Source of the DNA: a bacterium
GTDB taxonomy: Bacteria > UBA9089 > JASEGY01
Direction of reading: 5' to 3'
Assembly (NCBI GenBank): GCA_040753085.1
Contig: JBFMHI010000016.1
Coordinates: forward strand, 1-35,565
Length of the DNA: 35,565 nucleotides
Both the position numbers and the translations under genes were made by a program. The notes beneath the pieces were generated by a model, which searched no databases, was not told the DNA's origin, and was given only the letters and a program-made list of their open reading frames with translations. Positions within the stretch are counted from its first letter, which is position 1. Each line of letters begins with the position of its first letter. This document shows positions 2-33,900 of this stretch, piece by piece.

Positions 2-254
2 GTAACCGTTCAGCACATAATGCTGGATGCTCGATCCTCGATGCTCGATCCTCGATGCTCGATCCTCGATGCTCGATCCTCGATGCTCGATGCTCGATCC
101 TCGATGCTCGATGCTCGATGCTCGATGCTCGATGCTCGATGCTCGATGCTCGATCCTCGATGCTCGATGCTCGATGCTCGATGCTGGTAAAGGATCCAGT
201 ATCCAGGATCGAGCATCGAGCATCGAGTTTGTGCCTTAGTGGCTGAACGCTTAC
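2..254. mobile_element. TIR-bounded heptamer element, long copy (element A)
   Basis: The left end GTAACCGTTCAGCAC (2-16) and the right end GTGGCTGAACGCTTAC (239-254) are imperfect inverted repeats. The interior is a heptamer array, then a spacer with GGATCCAGTATCCAGGATC, then inverted heptamers. The reverse complement of 5836-5955 is the same element almost base for base outside the array. No transposase is encoded, so if mobile it would be a MITE-like passenger. Its left flank lies outside the window, so a target duplication cannot be checked. Confidence 0.75.
26..186. repeat. GATGCTC/GATCCTC heptamer tandem array
   Basis: Twenty-two uninterrupted 7-bp units, GATGCTC with interspersed GATCCTC, run from 26 to 179, followed by one degenerate unit. 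The only variation is one G/C position, which suggests recent slippage. The unit has no stop codon in any of six frames, so it produces spurious ORFs on both strands. Confidence 0.95.
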
Positions 255-5835: not shown

Positions 5836-5955
5836 GTAAGCGTTCAGCCACTAAGGCACAAACTCGATGCTCGATGCTCGATCCTGGATACTGGATCCTT
5901 TACCAGCATCGAAGATCGAGCATCGAGCATCCAGCATCATGTGCTGAACGGTTAC
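5836..5955. mobile_element. TIR-bounded heptamer element, short inverted copy (element C)
   Basis: Its ends are GTAAGCGTTCAGCCAC and GTGCTGAACGGTTAC. The reverse complement matches element A (2-254) with one difference seen outside the heptamer array. Here the array has only three heptamers plus the degenerate end unit, against 22 plus end unit in A. The length difference (253 versus 120 bp) is exactly 19 x 7. No target duplication is apparent. Confidence 0.8.
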
Positions 5956-8324: not shown

Positions 8325-9536
8325 ATGAAGATTCTTACCCTAACCACCCTTTTCCCCAACCCGAAACAACCGCATTTGGGCCTTTTTGTCCGCGAACGGG
8401 TAAAGGCCATGAGCCATTTATGTGAGCTTAAGGTAGTGGCTCCGATCAGATGGCCCAGTCGATGGCGGATGGCGGATGGCGGATTTAGAATCCGAAATCC
8501 GAAATCTGAAATCCAAAATCCAAAATTAGAGGTTTTCCATCCCTCGGTCTTTCTGTGGCCAGGGATAGGTCGTTCCCTGCACTGGGTGGCTTATTTCCTT
8601 TCCGTAGTTAGAACCATCTCAAGACTTCGGCAGACCTTTTCTTTTGATCTTCTGGATGTGCACTATGCCTATCCGGACGGGGCGGCCGGGGTACTGTTGG
8701 GTAAATATTTGAAGGTGCCGGTAAGTATCACGGTTCGGGGAACGGACATCAACCTCTTTAGCCGGGAGAGACTTCGGGGAAGGGTGATTCAATGGGCTTT
8801 AGTTGAAGCCGATCTGGTTATTGCCGTTTCCGTTGATTTAGGGAGAAAAGTAGTTGATCTGGGGGTTAGCCCTGAAAAGGTGAAGATTATTCCTAATGGG
8901 GTCGATTCAGAGAAATTTTATCCGGTAAACCCTGCGGAGGCGAGGAGGCAGTTGGGATTGTCCTCTGAGTCTTTGGTCATTCTTTCTGTGGCTAATTTGA
9001 TAAAGACAAAGGGGATTCATCATATTATCGAGGCGGTGAAGGAAGTTAGGGAGAAAGGGAAAGAGGTGAATTTAATTATTGTAGGTGAAGGCCAGGCCAG
9101 GCCGGGTTTGGAAAGGCAAATCAGAGACCTGGGCTTGATTGATTCGGTTAAACTTATTGGAGCTTGCGAACAGACTCAATTATATCTCTGGTATAATGCC
9201 GCTAACCTTTTCTGTTTGGCCTCTTATCGGGAGGGTTGTCCTAATGTCTTGCTGGAGGCATTAGCCTGCGGCTGTCCGGTGGCGGCTGTTGAGGTGGGTG
9301 GTGTGCCTGAGATTATTACTTCTGAAGACTATGGCCTTCTGGTAAAGAGTCCTCCTGATCGGGGCAGCCTGTCAGAGGCTATCTGGAAGGCCTTGAATAA
9401 AGACTGGGATAGAGAAAAGCTAATTAGCTATGCCCGGGAAAGGACCTGGGATAAGGTAGCCGAGCAGGTTATGATAGAATTCAATCAGATTGCGGATTGC
9501 GAATCGCGAATCGCGAATTGCGAATTACGGATTTAG
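8325..9536 (+). CDS. GT4-family glycosyltransferase with repeat-encoded insertion
   Basis: About 403 residues from ATG 8325 (MKILTLTTLFPNPKQPHLG); the longer frame from 8256 is translated repeat. It probably transfers a sugar from a nucleotide donor during exopolysaccharide or cell-surface glycan synthesis at the cytoplasmic membrane. The GT-B fold is clear: the N-terminal QPHLGLFVRERVKAM, DVHYAYPDGAAGVLL, VRGTDINLF, then the donor domain PNGVDSEKFYP, LSVANLIKTKG, IVGEGQ, and the EX7E motif REGCPNVLLEALACGCPVAAVEVGGVPEII. Residues about 46-68 (MADGGFRIRNPKSEIQNPK) are encoded by a palindromic repeat (8461-8528) where homologues have a short variable loop. The C-terminal tail from about residue 387 is again repeat-encoded, and the stop TAG (9534-9536) is part of the repeat core. 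Confidence 0.92.
   Translation: MKILTLTTLFPNPKQPHLGLFVRERVKAMSHLCELKVVAPIRWPSRWRMADGGFRIRNPKSEIQNPKLEVFHPSVFLWPGIGRSLHWVAYFLSVVRTISRLRQTFSFDLLDVHYAYPDGAAGVLLGKYLKVPVSITVRGTDINLFSRERLRGRVIQWALVEADLVIAVSVDLGRKVVDLGVSPEKVKIIPNGVDSEKFYPVNPAEARRQLGLSSESLVILSVANLIKTKGIHHIIEAVKEVREKGKEVNLIIVGEGQARPGLERQIRDLGLIDSVKLIGACEQTQLYLWYNAANLFCLASYREGCPNVLLEALACGCPVAAVEVGGVPEIITSEDYGLLVKSPPDRGSLSEAIWKALNKDWDREKLISYARERTWDKVAEQVMIEFNQIADCESRIANCELRI
8461..8528. repeat. Palindromic heptamer element inserted in the GT4 gene
   Basis: ATGGCGG heptamers run into the core GGATTTAGAATCCGAAATCC and then GAAATC/AAAATCC heptamers. The element is in frame with the glycosyltransferase and contains no stop in that frame. 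The same core is at 2945, 9527 and 10581. Confidence 0.88.
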
Positions 9537-9711
9537 AATTCGAAATCCAAAATCCGAAATCTGCAATCGGTATGTTCGCAATCCGCAATCCGCGATTCGC
9601 AATCCGCGATCCGCAATTCGCAATCCGCAATCCGCAATTCGCAATCCGCGATTCGCAATCCGCGATCCGCAATCCGCGATCCGCGATTCGCGATTCGCAA
9701 TCCGCAATCCA
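9484..9711. repeat. Long inverted GCGGATT / AATCCGC heptamer array
   Basis: About 30 imperfect heptamers. The first 45 bp are GCGGATT/GCGAATC; after the core GGATTTAGAATTCGAAATCC the strand sense flips to AATCCGC/GATTCGC for over 140 bp. The array spans the end of the glycosyltransferase gene and reaches the start codon of the next gene (9712). Heptamers are open in all six frames, so ORFs appear here on both strands. Confidence 0.93.
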
Positions 9712-10818
9712 ATGTATGTTTTAATCACCGTTGACACCGAATCCAGTAAACGTCGAGGCAAGCCCTTGCCTTATGAACAGATGGTCTATGGCCGGGTAGG
9801 GGAAGAGTGCTTCGGTATTCCAAAGATTATTTCTATCTGTAATCAATATGGGCTGGGGGCTACCTTTTTTGTCAGTGTCTTTGAGGCCCAGCATTATGGG
9901 GCAGACCTTATCAAAAAGACCTGCTTAGATATAGCTGAGGCAGGCCATGATGTTCAGCTCCATACCCATCCTAACTGGATATATTCGGATTGGCTTATGT
10001 GGCAATATCCCTTGGAGAGGCAGATAGAGCTGATCAAAAGGGGCAAGGAGATGCTTTGCCAATTTTTGGGGGAACCGCCCATTGCCCATCGGGCCGGAGC
10101 ATTTGGAGCGGATTTTAATACCTTGAAGGCCCTGGCCGCCAACGCCATCCCGATCGATTCCTCTTTTTTCTTTGGGTATCCTTATTGCCGGCTTACCTCG
10201 CCACCGCTCTCCAAAAACGGCATATCAGTAATCAGCGGAATGCAGATGGCGGCATCCGCCATCCGCCATTCGCCATCGGCTAATGGAGTGGTGGAGATAC
10301 CGCCCACAATTTTTACTGAAATAAAATTAGGTTCCTTTAAGCGCTACCGGAACCTTGATCCCTACACGACTTCTTTGCCTGAGATGATTCGAGTGGTTAA
10401 GCAGGCCAAGGAGAGAGGCTTGAAGACCGTGGTGGTCTTGCTGCACAGTTTTACCTTTTTAAGGATGGACAGGGATCGAACCAGATTTGAACCGGACTGG
10501 AAGGACATTAAGAAATTCGACCAGTTTTGTGCCTGGCTCAAAGGCGAGCCGGGGATAGAGGTGGTCACCATGAAACAGATTGCGGATTTAGAATCCGAAA
10601 TCCGCAATCCGAAATCCGCAATCAGTATGTCCGCAATCCGCCATCCAAAATCCGAAATCGAAGATGACCTGGTGCCTCATCCGGGTATGCCCTATACCCT
10701 TATGCGGTCTTTTACTCACTTCCGAAAGAGCCGGAAAAACAAACTGGTGGCCATATTTAGTCTGAGCACCGGTCTATTTCTCCTGATGTTTCTCGGGTGG
10801 CTTATTGGATTTCGGTAA
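9712..10818 (+). CDS. Polysaccharide deacetylase-like protein with C-terminal membrane helix
   Basis: About 368 residues from ATG 9712 (MYVLITVDTESSKRRGK). The frame is open through the upstream array to 9490, but that part is pure repeat; no Shine-Dalgarno is seen at either start. NodB-like motifs: TVDTE (motif 1), DVQLHTHPNW (H-x-H metal site), HRAGAFGAD (motif 3) and VVVLLHSFTFL (motif 5), so it probably acts on an acetylated or otherwise modified glycan. Residues about 178-190 (AASAIRHSPSA) and 289-318 (DLESEIRNPKSAISMSAIRHPKSE) are encoded by heptamer repeats. A C-terminal hydrophobic helix (LVAIFSLSTGLFLLMFLGWLIGF) should anchor it. The TAA stop lies inside element E; without that insertion the frame would continue to 10987. 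Confidence 0.82.
   Translation: MYVLITVDTESSKRRGKPLPYEQMVYGRVGEECFGIPKIISICNQYGLGATFFVSVFEAQHYGADLIKKTCLDIAEAGHDVQLHTHPNWIYSDWLMWQYPLERQIELIKRGKEMLCQFLGEPPIAHRAGAFGADFNTLKALAANAIPIDSSFFFGYPYCRLTSPPLSKNGISVISGMQMAASAIRHSPSANGVVEIPPTIFTEIKLGSFKRYRNLDPYTTSLPEMIRVVKQAKERGLKTVVVLLHSFTFLRMDRDRTRFEPDWKDIKKFDQFCAWLKGEPGIEVVTMKQIADLESEIRNPKSAISMSAIRHPKSEIEDDLVPHPGMPYTLMRSFTHFRKSRKNKLVAIFSLSTGLFLLMFLGWLIGFR
10244..10280. repeat. GATGGCGG/CCGCCATC repeat inside deacetylase gene
   Basis: GATGGCGG is followed by the inverted heptamers CCGCCAT, CCGCCAT, TCGCCAT. The reading frame passes through without a stop, giving AASAIRHSPSA. It is flanked by ordinary deacetylase sequence on both sides. Confidence 0.75.
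10576..10664. repeat. Palindromic heptamer element near the 3' end of deacetylase gene
   Basis: GCGGATTTAGAATCCGAAAT is followed by CCGCAAT/CCGAAAT heptamers. The same core as at 8481 is here read in a different frame (ADLESEIRNP rather than GFRIRNP). It lies between the NodB-like domain and the membrane helix. Confidence 0.88.
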
Positions 10819-10906
10819 TCGTTCACCACAGAGATACAGAGACATAGAGAATGATTTTAGATTTTTCTCAGTGTCTCTGTGTCTCCGTGGTGAGGTGAAC
10901 GGTTAC
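10815..10906. mobile_element. 92-bp MITE-like element with 8-bp target duplication (element E)
   Basis: Ends GTAATCGTTCACCACAGAGA and (right, reverse-complemented) GTAACCGTTCACCTCACCAC are inverted repeats, continuing as AYACAGAGACA on both arms with a 5-bp offset. GGATTTCG occurs flush on both sides (10807-10814 and 10907-10914), as expected for an 8-bp target duplication. The left end GTAA supplies the TAA stop of the deacetylase gene. No transposase is encoded; the GTAAC-GTTCA ends match elements A and C, so a shared mobilising enzyme is plausible. Confidence 0.8.
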
Positions 10907-10914
10907 GGATTTCG

Positions 10915-11043
10915 CCCCCACTTGGTGGGCACCCCAGATTTCGGATGGCAAATTTGGGAATGGATTTGGGGCATGGTTCAAAGATGACCCTTTGCTTGTC
11001 TTACTTCGGTTTAGACAGGATAGGTTCCGGGTTTTTCGTCGGT
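10915..11043. other. Gene-free stretch, possible former 3' end of the deacetylase gene
   Basis: If element E and one target copy are removed, the deacetylase frame continues through RPHLVGTPDFGWQIWEWI to a stop at 10985-10987. Whether this was ever the native C-terminus is unknown. CCCAC-TTG-GTGGG near 10919 is a small hairpin. Confidence 0.4.
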
Positions 11044-11574: not shown

Positions 11575-11639
11575 AAAGCTTATTTAATCCTACCAATGAA
11601 ACACAGTTTTAGATCCAGCAAACATTGTCCCAGCCAGTT

Positions 11640-11810
11640 TATTTTATCCGGGAATTTTCAAGGTTACCTGAAGGGGAAGGGGTAGATTTTATCGGGGAAT
11701 TATTTTATCCGGGAATTTTCAAGGTTACCCGAAGGGGAAGGGGTAAATTTTAGCCGGGAATTATTTTATCCGGGAATTTCCAAGGTTACCTGAAGGGGTA
11801 ACGGTTAAAT
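11640..11810. repeat. 61-bp direct repeat, three copies
   Basis: Copies begin TATTTTATCCGGGAATTT at 11640, 11701 and 11762, an exact 61-bp period. Each continues with CAAGGTTACCTGAAGGGG or a close variant; the third copy stops after GAAGGGGTAACGG. It lies in the presumed leader of the coiled-coil gene. Confidence 0.9.
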
Positions 11811-11853
11811 ACTCTCTGCTTTTCTGGGGGAGACGGGATGGGTTTTAACTAAG

Positions 11854-12062: not shown

Positions 12063-12608
12063 ATGAGATCGGCTTTAGCGGCTTTATTTCTTTCGATAGC
12101 TTTAATCGCGGGTATTTGTGGCAGCCCGGCTTATGCGGCTGGTGAAAAGGACGAGATGACCCTTGGGCAGCGGATGAGTAGATTAGAGGAGCGAATGCTT
12201 AGATTAGAGGTTATGTTGGAAGAGAAGTTTAAGGCCATCGATCAAAGGTTTGAGGCAGTCAATCAAAGATTTGAGGCAGTCGATCAAAGGTTTGAGGCGG
12301 TCAATCAGAGGATTGACGATTTGAAGGCCAGCGTTGAGGAGAGGTTTAATTATGTCTATATAATGTTAGGCGGTATTTTAGCTCTATTAGGCGGCGTTTT
12401 TGCTCTTATGGGGATTATGCTTAGCAAGGTGGTTTCGGTGTTGAGCGAAGAAAGGCCGATAGGTCACCGGCATTATGAGCAGATACAGAGGAGAGAGGAT
12501 GAGATAGAGGCTGAAATCAGGTCAATAAAGCGGAGAGAAGAAGAGATATTCGGCCGGTTAGAGAATCGGGTAGGCCGAATAGAAGAACAACTCCCGGTGG
12601 CAGCCTGA
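12063..12608 (+). CDS. Exported coiled-coil protein with a membrane helix
   Basis: A 181-residue protein starting at ATG 12063 with AAGGGGA about 8 bp upstream. Residues 1-25 look like a signal peptide (ALAALFLSIALIAGICGSPAYA). Residues 33-95 are a coiled coil, including four heptads of DQRFEAV/NQRFEAV (60-87) that are also a 21-bp DNA repeat. A strong membrane helix (YVYIMLGGILALLGGVFALMGIML, 97-120) is followed by a second charged helical stretch (140-178). I do not recognise a named family. It is the last small gene before the giant surface protein, 324 bp away; a similar coiled-coil/membrane protein lies just after the giant gene, so both might assist its export or anchoring. That is inference from position. 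Confidence 0.8.
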   Translation: MRSALAALFLSIALIAGICGSPAYAAGEKDEMTLGQRMSRLEERMLRLEVMLEEKFKAIDQRFEAVNQRFEAVDQRFEAVNQRIDDLKASVEERFNYVYIMLGGILALLGGVFALMGIMLSKVVSVLSEERPIGHRHYEQIQRREDEIEAEIRSIKRREEEIFGRLENRVGRIEEQLPVAA

Positions 12609-12687
12609 GAGCAGGCCCAGGCAGCCTGGCGCGTGGGATTTGTCCACCGAGGAGTGACCCAGACATCTGGCTGGTGATTTAGAAGTG

Positions 12688-30900: not shown

Positions 30901-33900
30901 ATCACTACTACAAGCCCTGCACGGATAAGGGCGTGATTTCAGCCATCTTTGCAGATTGGGGGAGTGGTTTCAACCTGGATGATGACACTGATGGGTTGGA
31001 TGACATCAGATTGGATATCTGGAAGTATATCAAAGACCTGGAGGTAGAGATAGATGTAGCTACTGGAGATGTAACTGCTACCGGCGGCGGAATTGCTAAC
31101 ACGGTTAATCTACCTTACCTGAAGGGTGTAGCCAACGATGGTGAGGATCAGGGTAATATCATCAACTTCCAGCGCAAGGTCTTGCTCAAGACCGTTTATG
31201 GTCGAGAGGGTGGTCTGAGGTTCCAGTACTCTGATGACTTCATCAATGATGGTCTGGATAACGAGACCTGGCATGATCTGCAGACTACCTGGGATCATAA
31301 GAATCATAAGGCTTGGCGGATAAGCTATAAGTATAACGATGGCAACCTCAAGGAAGGTGAGACCTTGCAGGCCATCTTCTACGTCGGTGGACATGAGGAT
31401 TGGGATGATCTGGATGATCTGCATAACGAGCATTACGGTTTCTTCCTCTATCAGCCGTGGGGTCTGCCGACAGCCTCATCAACAGGAGGGTCAGGAGGAT
31501 CTGGTGGATCCGGAGGATCTGGTGGATCCGGAGGATCTGGTGGATCCGGTGGAGCCGGAGGTGATGCAAGCGATAGTATGGCCGGTGGAGCTGGTGCCTC
31601 TGGTGCAGCCGGTGCAGCCGGCGCAGCCGGTGCAGCCGGCGCAGCCGGTGCAGCCGGTGGAGACCCTGACAGGAGAGACCTGATTATCGATGAGTGGGGA
31701 GATGAAGGAATTAACGATATTCCATTTGATCCGTTCCAGGCGTATTATATTGGTGATGATTTTGAAGATGCGTTGGGGAATGGTTCTGGAGAGACTTGGC
31801 TAGTCCGCAACTACATCATCGAGACCAGCGGACCGGCAGTGGCCTTTGATGTCAATGACGGTAGCGTGACCTCCAAGCAGCCGGCCTTTAATGTGAGGGT
31901 AGCGGATGCCGCTTCGGGCGTGACTTCGATCTCGGTTTACCTTGATGGGTATGACATTACCCTTGATCCGGGTGTCAAGCTAACCCCGGCCGGTGTTAGC
32001 TATCAGCCGACTATGCCGCTGGCTACGGGTAAGCATACCCTGATGATCGTGGCTATGGATAAGGTCGGTAATAAGACCACTAAGTCTATTACCTTTAATG
32101 TAGATGCCTCTATACCGATTATCACTATTGCCTCACCGGCTAATGGGGCGATTACTAATAACCTGCCTACCATTGAGGTTACCTATACTGAGGCTGAGGC
32201 GGCTGGCGCCGGGATCGAGGCCAAAGATGTAAGGGTGACTCTGGACGGAACAGATATTGTGGTTCAGGCTGGTGGGGCCGGGGTTAATACGGTGACCTAT
32301 ATGCCGGCTGAGCCTTTAGCCGAAGGTAGCCATACGGTGAAGGCTACGGTGACGGATAAGGTGGGTAATGTGGCCGTGGTCAGCTCCATCTTTACGGTTG
32401 ATGCTACGCCGCCTGATATGGCCGGTCTGCCGGCTAATGGCACGGTATTCGGTAAGTATGTGGCTCTGGATCTGGCTATAGCCGACGAGGTAGCCGATGT
32501 GGGCTGCGACGGCGTGGCGCTGTGGATGAATTCCAAGCTAATAACTGATGCCTGCCAGTGCGTACCGTACCAGTCTGTTAACCTTAGGTGGTCAGGCTAT
32601 CCTGAAGCGGGTGAGCATCTCATCCGGGTGGTAGCTACTGACCAGGTGGGCAATGTGGCCATGAAGGAGACCACCATCGTGGTTGATGTGGCTGGTCCGG
32701 TAATTACTATCCTGCCGCCTGTTACTGGCGCGGCCGGCCTGACTAAGGATACGGTTAGGATCGAGGCCACTATGACGGATGAGCCGGCCGGTGTGAAGGC
32801 TGATACGGTTAAAGTAACCTTAGATGGAACGGTGGTGGCCTACACCGTAACGGATAACCGGGTGGCCATTGACCTGGTCGGCCTGGCCGATGGACGGCAC
32901 ACCTTAGTGGTTGAGGCCGACGATAGAGTGGGTAATGCCGGCCGCAGTGAATGGATGTTCGAGGTGGATACGCAAGGCGCTGAGATATCAATTGCTACCG
33001 AGGCCGTTAATGGTTATGCGATTAATCCGGCGACTATTACCGGGGCAGTAAGCATTGACGGCGCTGATCTGGCTGCCCTGACCGTAACCGTGGACGGCGT
33101 TAATGTCACGCCGCAGGTCTTTAAGCAGTCCATTGACCGGGCCGTTAATGAGGCTATGGTCAACTGCTATGAGTACGAGTATGTGCCGTGCGGCGACCTG
33201 GTGGATTATTACCAGTCTGTAGAGGACGAGGCTTATTCCCAATCCGTAGACGAGGTGAATTTGGACGTCCAGATAGGTTCAGTCACGATAAGTTCGGCGC
33301 CGGTTGAAGCGCCTATTAGTGACTGCCTGACCGCGCCTTGCTGGGAAGAGACAATGAGAAGGGTGCTTGGCCTGTCAAGTATGACGGATGAAATCCTGGC
33401 CGCTTCTCTGGATATCATCAGGCTGGCCGGCATTTACTACACTACCCCGCCGCTGCCGGCCGGAGATCACACGGTAATAGCAACGGCGGTCGATGATTTA
33501 GGTAATAAGACCACTACGAGCCTGAACTTCAACATAGACGGCGCAGCCCCGAGCGTGGAGATCACCGCCCCGGCAGCCGGCTCCTTCACCCTGGCTCAGC
33601 CGATCTTTACCGCGACCTTTAGTGACGAAGGTATAGGTGTGGCTCGGGTAATGGTTAGCCTGGATGGCGAGGATGTTACAGCTCAGGCTAATATAGACAT
33701 GGCCGCAGGCAGCCTTACCTTTATGCCTGGCAAGCCGCTGAAGGATAGGACGCATACCCTGAGTGTGACGGTAACTGATGTGGTTTGGAATAGCACTACG
33801 GCCGAGGTTACTATTCAGGTAGATAGTACGGCGCCGCGTCTCACTATTCTTTCACCTGCTGTTTCATCTGAAAATGGGGCAATGGATGCTCCTTACGTGA

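Follow-up and report, generated by a model that had tools for sequence, protein, structure and literature searches.

An IS66-ended miniature element, probably an emptied GxxExxY cassette, provides a polysaccharide deacetylase gene with its stop codon

Described mobile elements and the element in the window

Several described kinds of mobile DNA resemble the element analysed here. Mobile insertion cassettes carry a passenger gene between insertion sequence ends, and have no transposase. In REPIN/RAYT systems, a HUH (Y1) transposase gene is flanked by REP palindromes. Insertion sequences of the IS66 family usually have inverted repeats of 20–30 bp. According to PMC11946415, these repeats start with GTAAGCG, and the target duplications are of 8 bp. 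MITEPsy1 is around 100 bp long with terminal inverted repeats, duplicates its target and alters reading frames, all of which it shares with the element in the window; it is however IS5-like, with a 4-nt duplication (PMC3189936).

The window is a stretch of 35,565 nucleotides, in which a polysaccharide deacetylase gene has an element of 92 bp at its 3' end (Table 1). The element is short and present in many copies, has inverted ends and a target duplication, and contains no transposase, which is the organisation of a MITE. Taken alone, it is an ordinary mini-transposon. The reading that we prefer, to which we give a probability of roughly 0.83, is that it is a transposase-less MITE with IS66-type ends, representing an emptied GxxExxY cassette, which entered the deacetylase gene at its 3' end and replaced its stop codon.

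The likeness to IS66 insertion sequences and their miniature derivatives lies in the GTAA ends, the 8-bp duplication, and the terminal 11–20 bases, which are identical to those of IS66 elements from the same phylum. The element differs from IS66 derivatives in lacking a transposase and in that the likeness to IS66 is confined to its tips, the body being apparently derived from a GxxExxY cassette and not from the interior of a deleted IS66 element. The likeness to mobile insertion cassettes is clearest in two other genomes (G013 and G018), where IS66-type ends that have exact 8-bp duplications enclose full-length GxxExxY genes. Here, however, the passenger gene is an orphan of PD-(D/E)XK-like type with inverted arms of its own, and the window copy appears to have lost it. 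REPINs and RAYTs, the subject of PMC3116915, are similar in having a small gene with short inverted repeats on either side, together with inverted pairs that lack the gene and are dispersed in many copies. Unlike RAYTs, GxxExxY proteins match PDDEXK_3/TIGR04256 and not a HUH transposase, the gene carried by the relatives of the window element being TIGR04256/PF13366. Unlike REPs, which are single palindromes, the arms consist of 7-nt units in arrays, and they are dispersed by means of IS66-type ends.

Table 1 Features of the element, its insertion site and the further elements of the family in the window
Feature	Position	Strand	Remark
Polysaccharide deacetylase gene, 368 aa, C-terminal hydrophobic helix, stop from element	9712..10818	+	Pfam PF01522
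Non-autonomous element (MITE), IS66-type ends, near-perfect hairpin, 92 bp	10815..10906	+	
Left target-duplication copy, 8 bp, GGATTTCG	10807..10814	.	8 bp is the duplication length of the family
Right target-duplication copy, 8 bp, GGATTTCG	10907..10914	.	
Left terminal inverted repeat GTAATCGTTCA	10815..10825	+	GTAANCGTTCA 651 times genome-wide; an IS66 element of the phylum has the same ends
Right terminal inverted repeat TGAACGGTTAC	10896..10906	-	
Deacetylase stop codon TAA, element bases 2-4	10816..10818	+	
Left arm, degraded unit array CCACAGAGATACAGAGACATAGAGA	10826..10850	+	Arm type as around GxxExxY genes; unit CACAGAG at 10827
Putative remnant of lost gene: start ATGATTTTA fused to stop region TTTAGA	10851..10861	+	TTTAGA junction 10856-10861; compare gene-bearing relatives, nested deletion series
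Right arm, inverted units CACGGAG, CACAGAG, CACTGAG	10867..10892	-	Units at 10889, 10881, 10873
Dispersed intergenic repeat, the insertion target; its in-frame translation is the supposed tail	10907..10946	+	7 further copies in sample, plus L018
Further element, identical ends, heptamer body	2..254	+	Left flank lost at contig start
Further element, identical ends, heptamer body	5836..5955	+	Exact 8-bp duplication absent

The element family and its IS66-type ends

The window's genome (G000), which is a 3.05 Mb draft in 250 contigs, contains 12 near full-length copies of the 92-bp element, plus further partial ones. The end motif GTAANCGTTCA is found 338 times on the forward and 313 times on the reverse strand, as compared to one occurrence on each strand (2 in total) for the reversed motif, used as a control. 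Outside this genome, the motif is most abundant in G013 (810) and G018 (797); its abundance is moderate elsewhere, and near zero in several genomes. An exact-pattern search for the end plus the arm in contigs of named genomes gave no matches.

Elements were defined as adjacent left and right ends 40–1500 bp apart. They were sampled from 20 stretches (364,301 bases) and the window, making 399,866 bases. The sample contains 45 elements, of which 44 have both flanks readable, the one excluded being the element at the very start of the window. Their ends are constant, while their bodies are widely different. The initial annotation had proposed a survey of other copies for 8-bp duplications, and these are indeed present: there are exact 8-bp flanking repeats at 17 of the 44 elements, and at 7 of the 26 close relatives of the window element, the window copy being counted in both. 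The probability of 17/44 arising by chance is below 0.001 by our own estimate. When flanking repeats of 6–14 bp were scanned, exact repeats were of 8 bp in 17 cases and of 9 bp in one. The other 27 of the 44 elements have no exact 8-bp duplication, and this is also true of most of the 92-bp class; a 92-bp copy in L005 (1501-1592) is flanked by an exact repeat of 11 bp (AAAATCTCCTC) and not 8 bp. Nested insertions with 8-bp duplications are also found, one of them within a copy of the window element (L013).

The ends, together with the length of the duplication, point to the IS66 family. The window element has ends starting GTAATCG and GTAACCG, and GTAACCG, GTAAGCG and GTAATCG are all found among the ends of the family. 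The duplications have the length characteristic of IS66, with the 9-bp case and the 11-bp case of L005 as exceptions. Within the phylum, G006 (contig C299) has a 1505-bp IS66 element with a 476-aa transposase frame, located between GTAACCGTTCAC and GTGAACGGTTAC. This is an autonomous IS66 element with the same ends, of a kind that was not found in the window's genome or in that of its same-genus relative. Only around 11–12 terminal bases are held in common with it, fewer than the 20–30 bp typical of the family, and the 8-bp sequences on its two flanks differ (GATTTTGA and GGAAAATT). In G013, a broken IS66 element begins with GTAACCGTTCAGGTATAGCT, and these 20 terminal bases are the same as those of the 225-bp class of the window's genome.

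IS66 transposases (PF03050) are present in 12 of the 19 genomes of the phylum. A search with PF03050 gave no matches in G000 or in G001, the only other genome of the genus that was searched; for G000 this is no proof of absence, because the assembly is a draft in 250 contigs. We infer that an IS66 transposase, now missing from the window's genome or unassembled, moved the element in trans.

The origin of the body can be traced through longer copies in the same genome, in which a gene is retained between the left and right halves. The peptide from one of these matches TIGR04256 (GxxExxY) with 57.9 bits, the cut-off being 35. There are 21 matches to PF13366 in this genome, all of them partial, and no intact GxxExxY gene between GTAANCGTTCA-type ends was found in it. 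The 26 close relatives, among which the window element is included, make up a nested deletion series from 79 to 693 bp. The gene-bearing copies read ATGATTTTAGAAAAAGC at the gene start and CTTGTCCTTTAGATTTTTC at the gene end, and these are joined in the 92-bp form as ATGATTTTAGATTTTTC, which places the deletion junction on the shared TTTAGA. As judged by sequence comparison, the body of the window element is thus an emptied GxxExxY cassette, linked by the deletion series to copies that hold parts of a TIGR04256 gene. It has one C[AG]CN[AG]AG unit on the + strand and three on the - strand, as would fit the cassette proposed, and near copies have fuller arms.

Cassettes that are still occupied were found in G013 and G018. 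A set of 42 GxxExxY loci was drawn from these genomes (2 + 40, selected from a longer list), and 19 of them lie between IS66-type ends, 7 of these having exact 8-bp duplications. Among the latter, L144, L169 and L172 have full-length genes. A 292-bp deletion form recurs in these two genomes.

On the basis of these observations, we hypothesise that the cassette consisted of two inverted short-unit arms, which once enclosed a small PD-(D/E)XK-like gene. An internal deletion at the shared TTTAGA would have removed the gene; as the ends are all that the transposase requires, copying of the empty cassette would have gone on. At the present site, the order of events that we infer is that the empty cassette entered the 3' end of the gene for the deacetylase, with duplication of 8 bp of the target.

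Inverted arms around GxxExxY genes

The GxxExxY family is present in 39 of 146 sampled genomes. Arms were sought at GxxExxY loci by aligning the upstream flank with the reverse complement of the downstream flank of the same locus, and a z score above 4 against shuffles was taken as significant. Set 1 consisted of the best locus from each of 30 genomes. The mean score against the locus's own flank was 27.7, compared to 13.5 against the flanks of other loci, a value reached by none of 10,000 permutations; likewise, none of 10,000 did so for the 20 loci outside the phylum. The threshold was passed by 25 of the 30 loci and by none of 18 control ORFs.

Set 2 consisted of 80 named loci from Cyanobacteria, Verrucomicrobia, Bacteroidota, Chloroflexota, Planctomycetota, Proteobacteria, Acidobacteria, methanogens and others, of which two were dropped because of short flanks, leaving 78. 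Here, 54/78 loci had z > 4, as compared with 7/275 control ORFs, and again no permutation out of 10,000 reached the observed score. At least two C[AG]CN[AG]AG units were found on each side, inverted, in 51/78 loci and in 0/291 control ORFs, with a spacing of mostly 8–10 nt. Some genomes may be present in both the named and the unnamed sets, and the counts of the two are thus not additive.

The unit motif was defined after inspection of sets 1 and 2, and the sole held-out test is set 3, which comprises 29 loci from the phylum of G065. In this set, z > 4 was obtained for 28 loci, and units were present on both sides in 25; none of the local controls, which were few (5), passed. One permutation in 10,000 reached the observed score, because many of the arms in this phylum resemble each other.

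Loci that fall below the threshold number 24 of 78 in set 2, 5 of 30 in set 1 and 1 of 29 in set 3; examples from set 2 that seem to be armless are L204, L209, L233, L243 and L255. Some of the high scores in set 2, as at L194 and L216, reflect long and loose alignments without the appearance of unit arrays. The arm sequences differ from locus to locus and follow one grammar, with units every 8–10 nt. In the window's genome, a unit is found in at least one arm of 34 of the 45 sampled elements, compared to 127 of 2250 random placements, and in both arms of 17 of the 45. It would thus appear from the sequences that, across many phyla, GxxExxY genes are packaged between inverted short-unit arms in most of the loci tested. 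In the literature searched, as far as its text was accessible, no account of arm cassettes was found under GxxExxY, TIGR04256/PF13366 or the arm strings, which is not proof of novelty.

It is worth adding that in L117 (G048) the arms of the GxxExxY gene seem to hold inserted palindromes between the units, on both sides.

In the GxxExxY proteins, D62, E72 and K74 are invariant in 28 sequences, as would fit a PD-(D/E)XK site; E22 and Y25, which belong to the family motif, are invariant too. A search of the PDB with a GxxExxY protein gave no match. A tentative proposal, which we would put at rather less than even odds, is that the GxxExxY gene and its arms form an undescribed and very widespread two-part system, in which a PD-(D/E)XK-like nuclease would recognise or process its own arms, and gene-less arm pairs would be its dispersed satellites. 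Such a system would parallel RAYTs and REPs, with an enzyme unrelated to theirs. In the phylum of the window's genome, IS66-type ends would have captured the cassettes, which would then have multiplied to hundreds of copies; some of these form the 3' ends of genes. The arms may alternatively serve as operators or terminators, or act at the RNA level. With the genes packaged between arms, a gene family and a class of intergenic repeats, both unexplained, would become one testable system, and the question is raised of whether the GxxExxY protein binds or cuts its own arms.

If the protein is a nuclease, it might itself move the cassettes by way of the arms, the IS66-type ends being incidental. 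The residues D62, E72 and K74 fit this suggestion, as does the presence of arms around GxxExxY genes in phyla where adjoining GTAANCGTTCA ends are rare. However, elements of the phylum that have unrelated bodies share only their ends, the duplications are flush with the IS66-type ends, and a genuine IS66 element carries the same ends, which makes movement by the nuclease rather unlikely.

It is distinctly unlikely that the arms are bidirectional terminators or the stem of an RNA-level excision, and that the genomic pattern results from a function in RNA and not from mobility. In favour, the arms are inverted around a gene, and as RNA the 92-nt element forms a strong hairpin (−50.8 kcal/mol, z −10.4); but a strong hairpin is what any inverted pair would be expected to give. 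Moreover, empty copies with target duplications have moved as DNA, and a search against Rfam families found no match in the window.

The insertion site and the deacetylase gene

We return to the preferred reading, of an emptied cassette with IS66-type ends, and to its insertion site. Exact copies of GGATTTCG lie flush against both ends of the element, as the initial annotation had described. This string is part of a heptamer-type repeat and is over-represented, with 45 occurrences in the sample compared to 12 expected, and the duplication by itself is thus weak evidence of insertion. Since the flanking repeat family also contains GGATTTCG, the two copies might reflect the context of a GGATTTC heptamer array and not a target duplication. 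This is very improbable in view of the flush 8-bp duplications of unrelated sequence at other sampled elements and close relatives described above, and such family-wide duplications rule out chance or heptamer origin as the main explanation.

The deacetylase matches PF01522 with 27.8 bits (cut-off 23.1), and its C-terminal helix was recognised by eye. The ORF listed from position 9490 opens inside a heptamer array, while the ATG at 9712 is the start shared with the ortholog in G001, and this is where the start appears to be best placed. The stop codon of the gene, TAA, is supplied by bases 2-4 of the element. When the element and one copy of GGATTTCG were removed in a script, the frame remained open to 10987, ending in ...GWLIGFRPHLVGTPDFGWQIWEWIWGMVQR*, in agreement with the initial annotation.

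The earlier interpretation was correct as regards an insertion with an 8-bp duplication and the supply of the stop codon, but its further conclusion, that the gene was truncated, is not upheld. Truncation, with removal of a genuine C-terminal tail (RPHLVGTPDFGW), is favoured by the open frame of the empty site, but is very improbable because the ortholog in G001, which has no element (80% identity, residues 74-441), ends one residue earlier, with ...VGWLIGH* as compared to ...LGWLIGFR* here, because the DNA of the supposed tail is a dispersed repeat, whose further copies (Table 1) have at most 6 substitutions in 28 bases, and because the 3' flanks of the two species align poorly straight after the stop. 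The deacetylase was thus probably not truncated by the insertion. An ortholog without the element and with such an end is the refuting case that the initial annotation had itself specified. The membrane helix is absent from two distant homologs (G017 and G011).

Because the ends begin with GTAA, a frame that enters an end in one of its three phases immediately meets a TAA. The element therefore takes the place of the stop codon, and the protein does not have to become shorter. Among ORFs with 80 codons or more, the stop codon falls on element bases 2-4 at 3 of the 45 sampled elements, these being the window element and elements in L083 and L095. In L083, a minus-strand frame of 2443 codons stops on the TAA of the element at 12482-12667, and the reconstructed empty site gives an identical C-terminus (...KMIVLK*); we take its final residues to resemble a secretion-sorting tail. 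In L095 the frame has 137 codons. In L094, an element contributes approximately 12 codons at the end of a frame of 1179 codons, which presumably resembles Mfd. Elements thus form the 3' ends of genes in this genome without necessarily shortening the proteins. The genus provides a case in which hundreds of such elements adjoin genes, and some of them supply stop codons.

Other repeats are also present around the deacetylase gene. Heptamer-type repeats of the intergenic kind (ATCCGAAATCCGCAATCC and similar ones) are found in frame at 9490-9711, before the gene, and at around 10240-10290 and 10585-10660 inside it, and the ortholog in G001 has other repeats in the corresponding linker ahead of the membrane helix. 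Coding sequence in this region seems to have been invaded by repeats. In L032 of G001, a glycosyltransferase-like frame is found upstream of the deacetylase ortholog; it is an otherwise normal-looking enzyme with in-frame GRAGLADRAGLAD and PPDRLCPPPDRLC repeats. The repeat that served as insertion target, together with copies in L078, L082, L084, L085, L094 and L018, represents a dispersed palindromic repeat around GCACCCACTTCGTGGGTACCC, within GGATTTCGG arrays.

Further along the window, a 61-bp unit is repeated three times in tandem at 11639-11821, with 93% and 72% identity to the first. Positions 12933-34445 are occupied by a single open frame of 7170 codons, which contains internal repeats, such as GGATCTGGTGGATCC at approximately 31490-31560.
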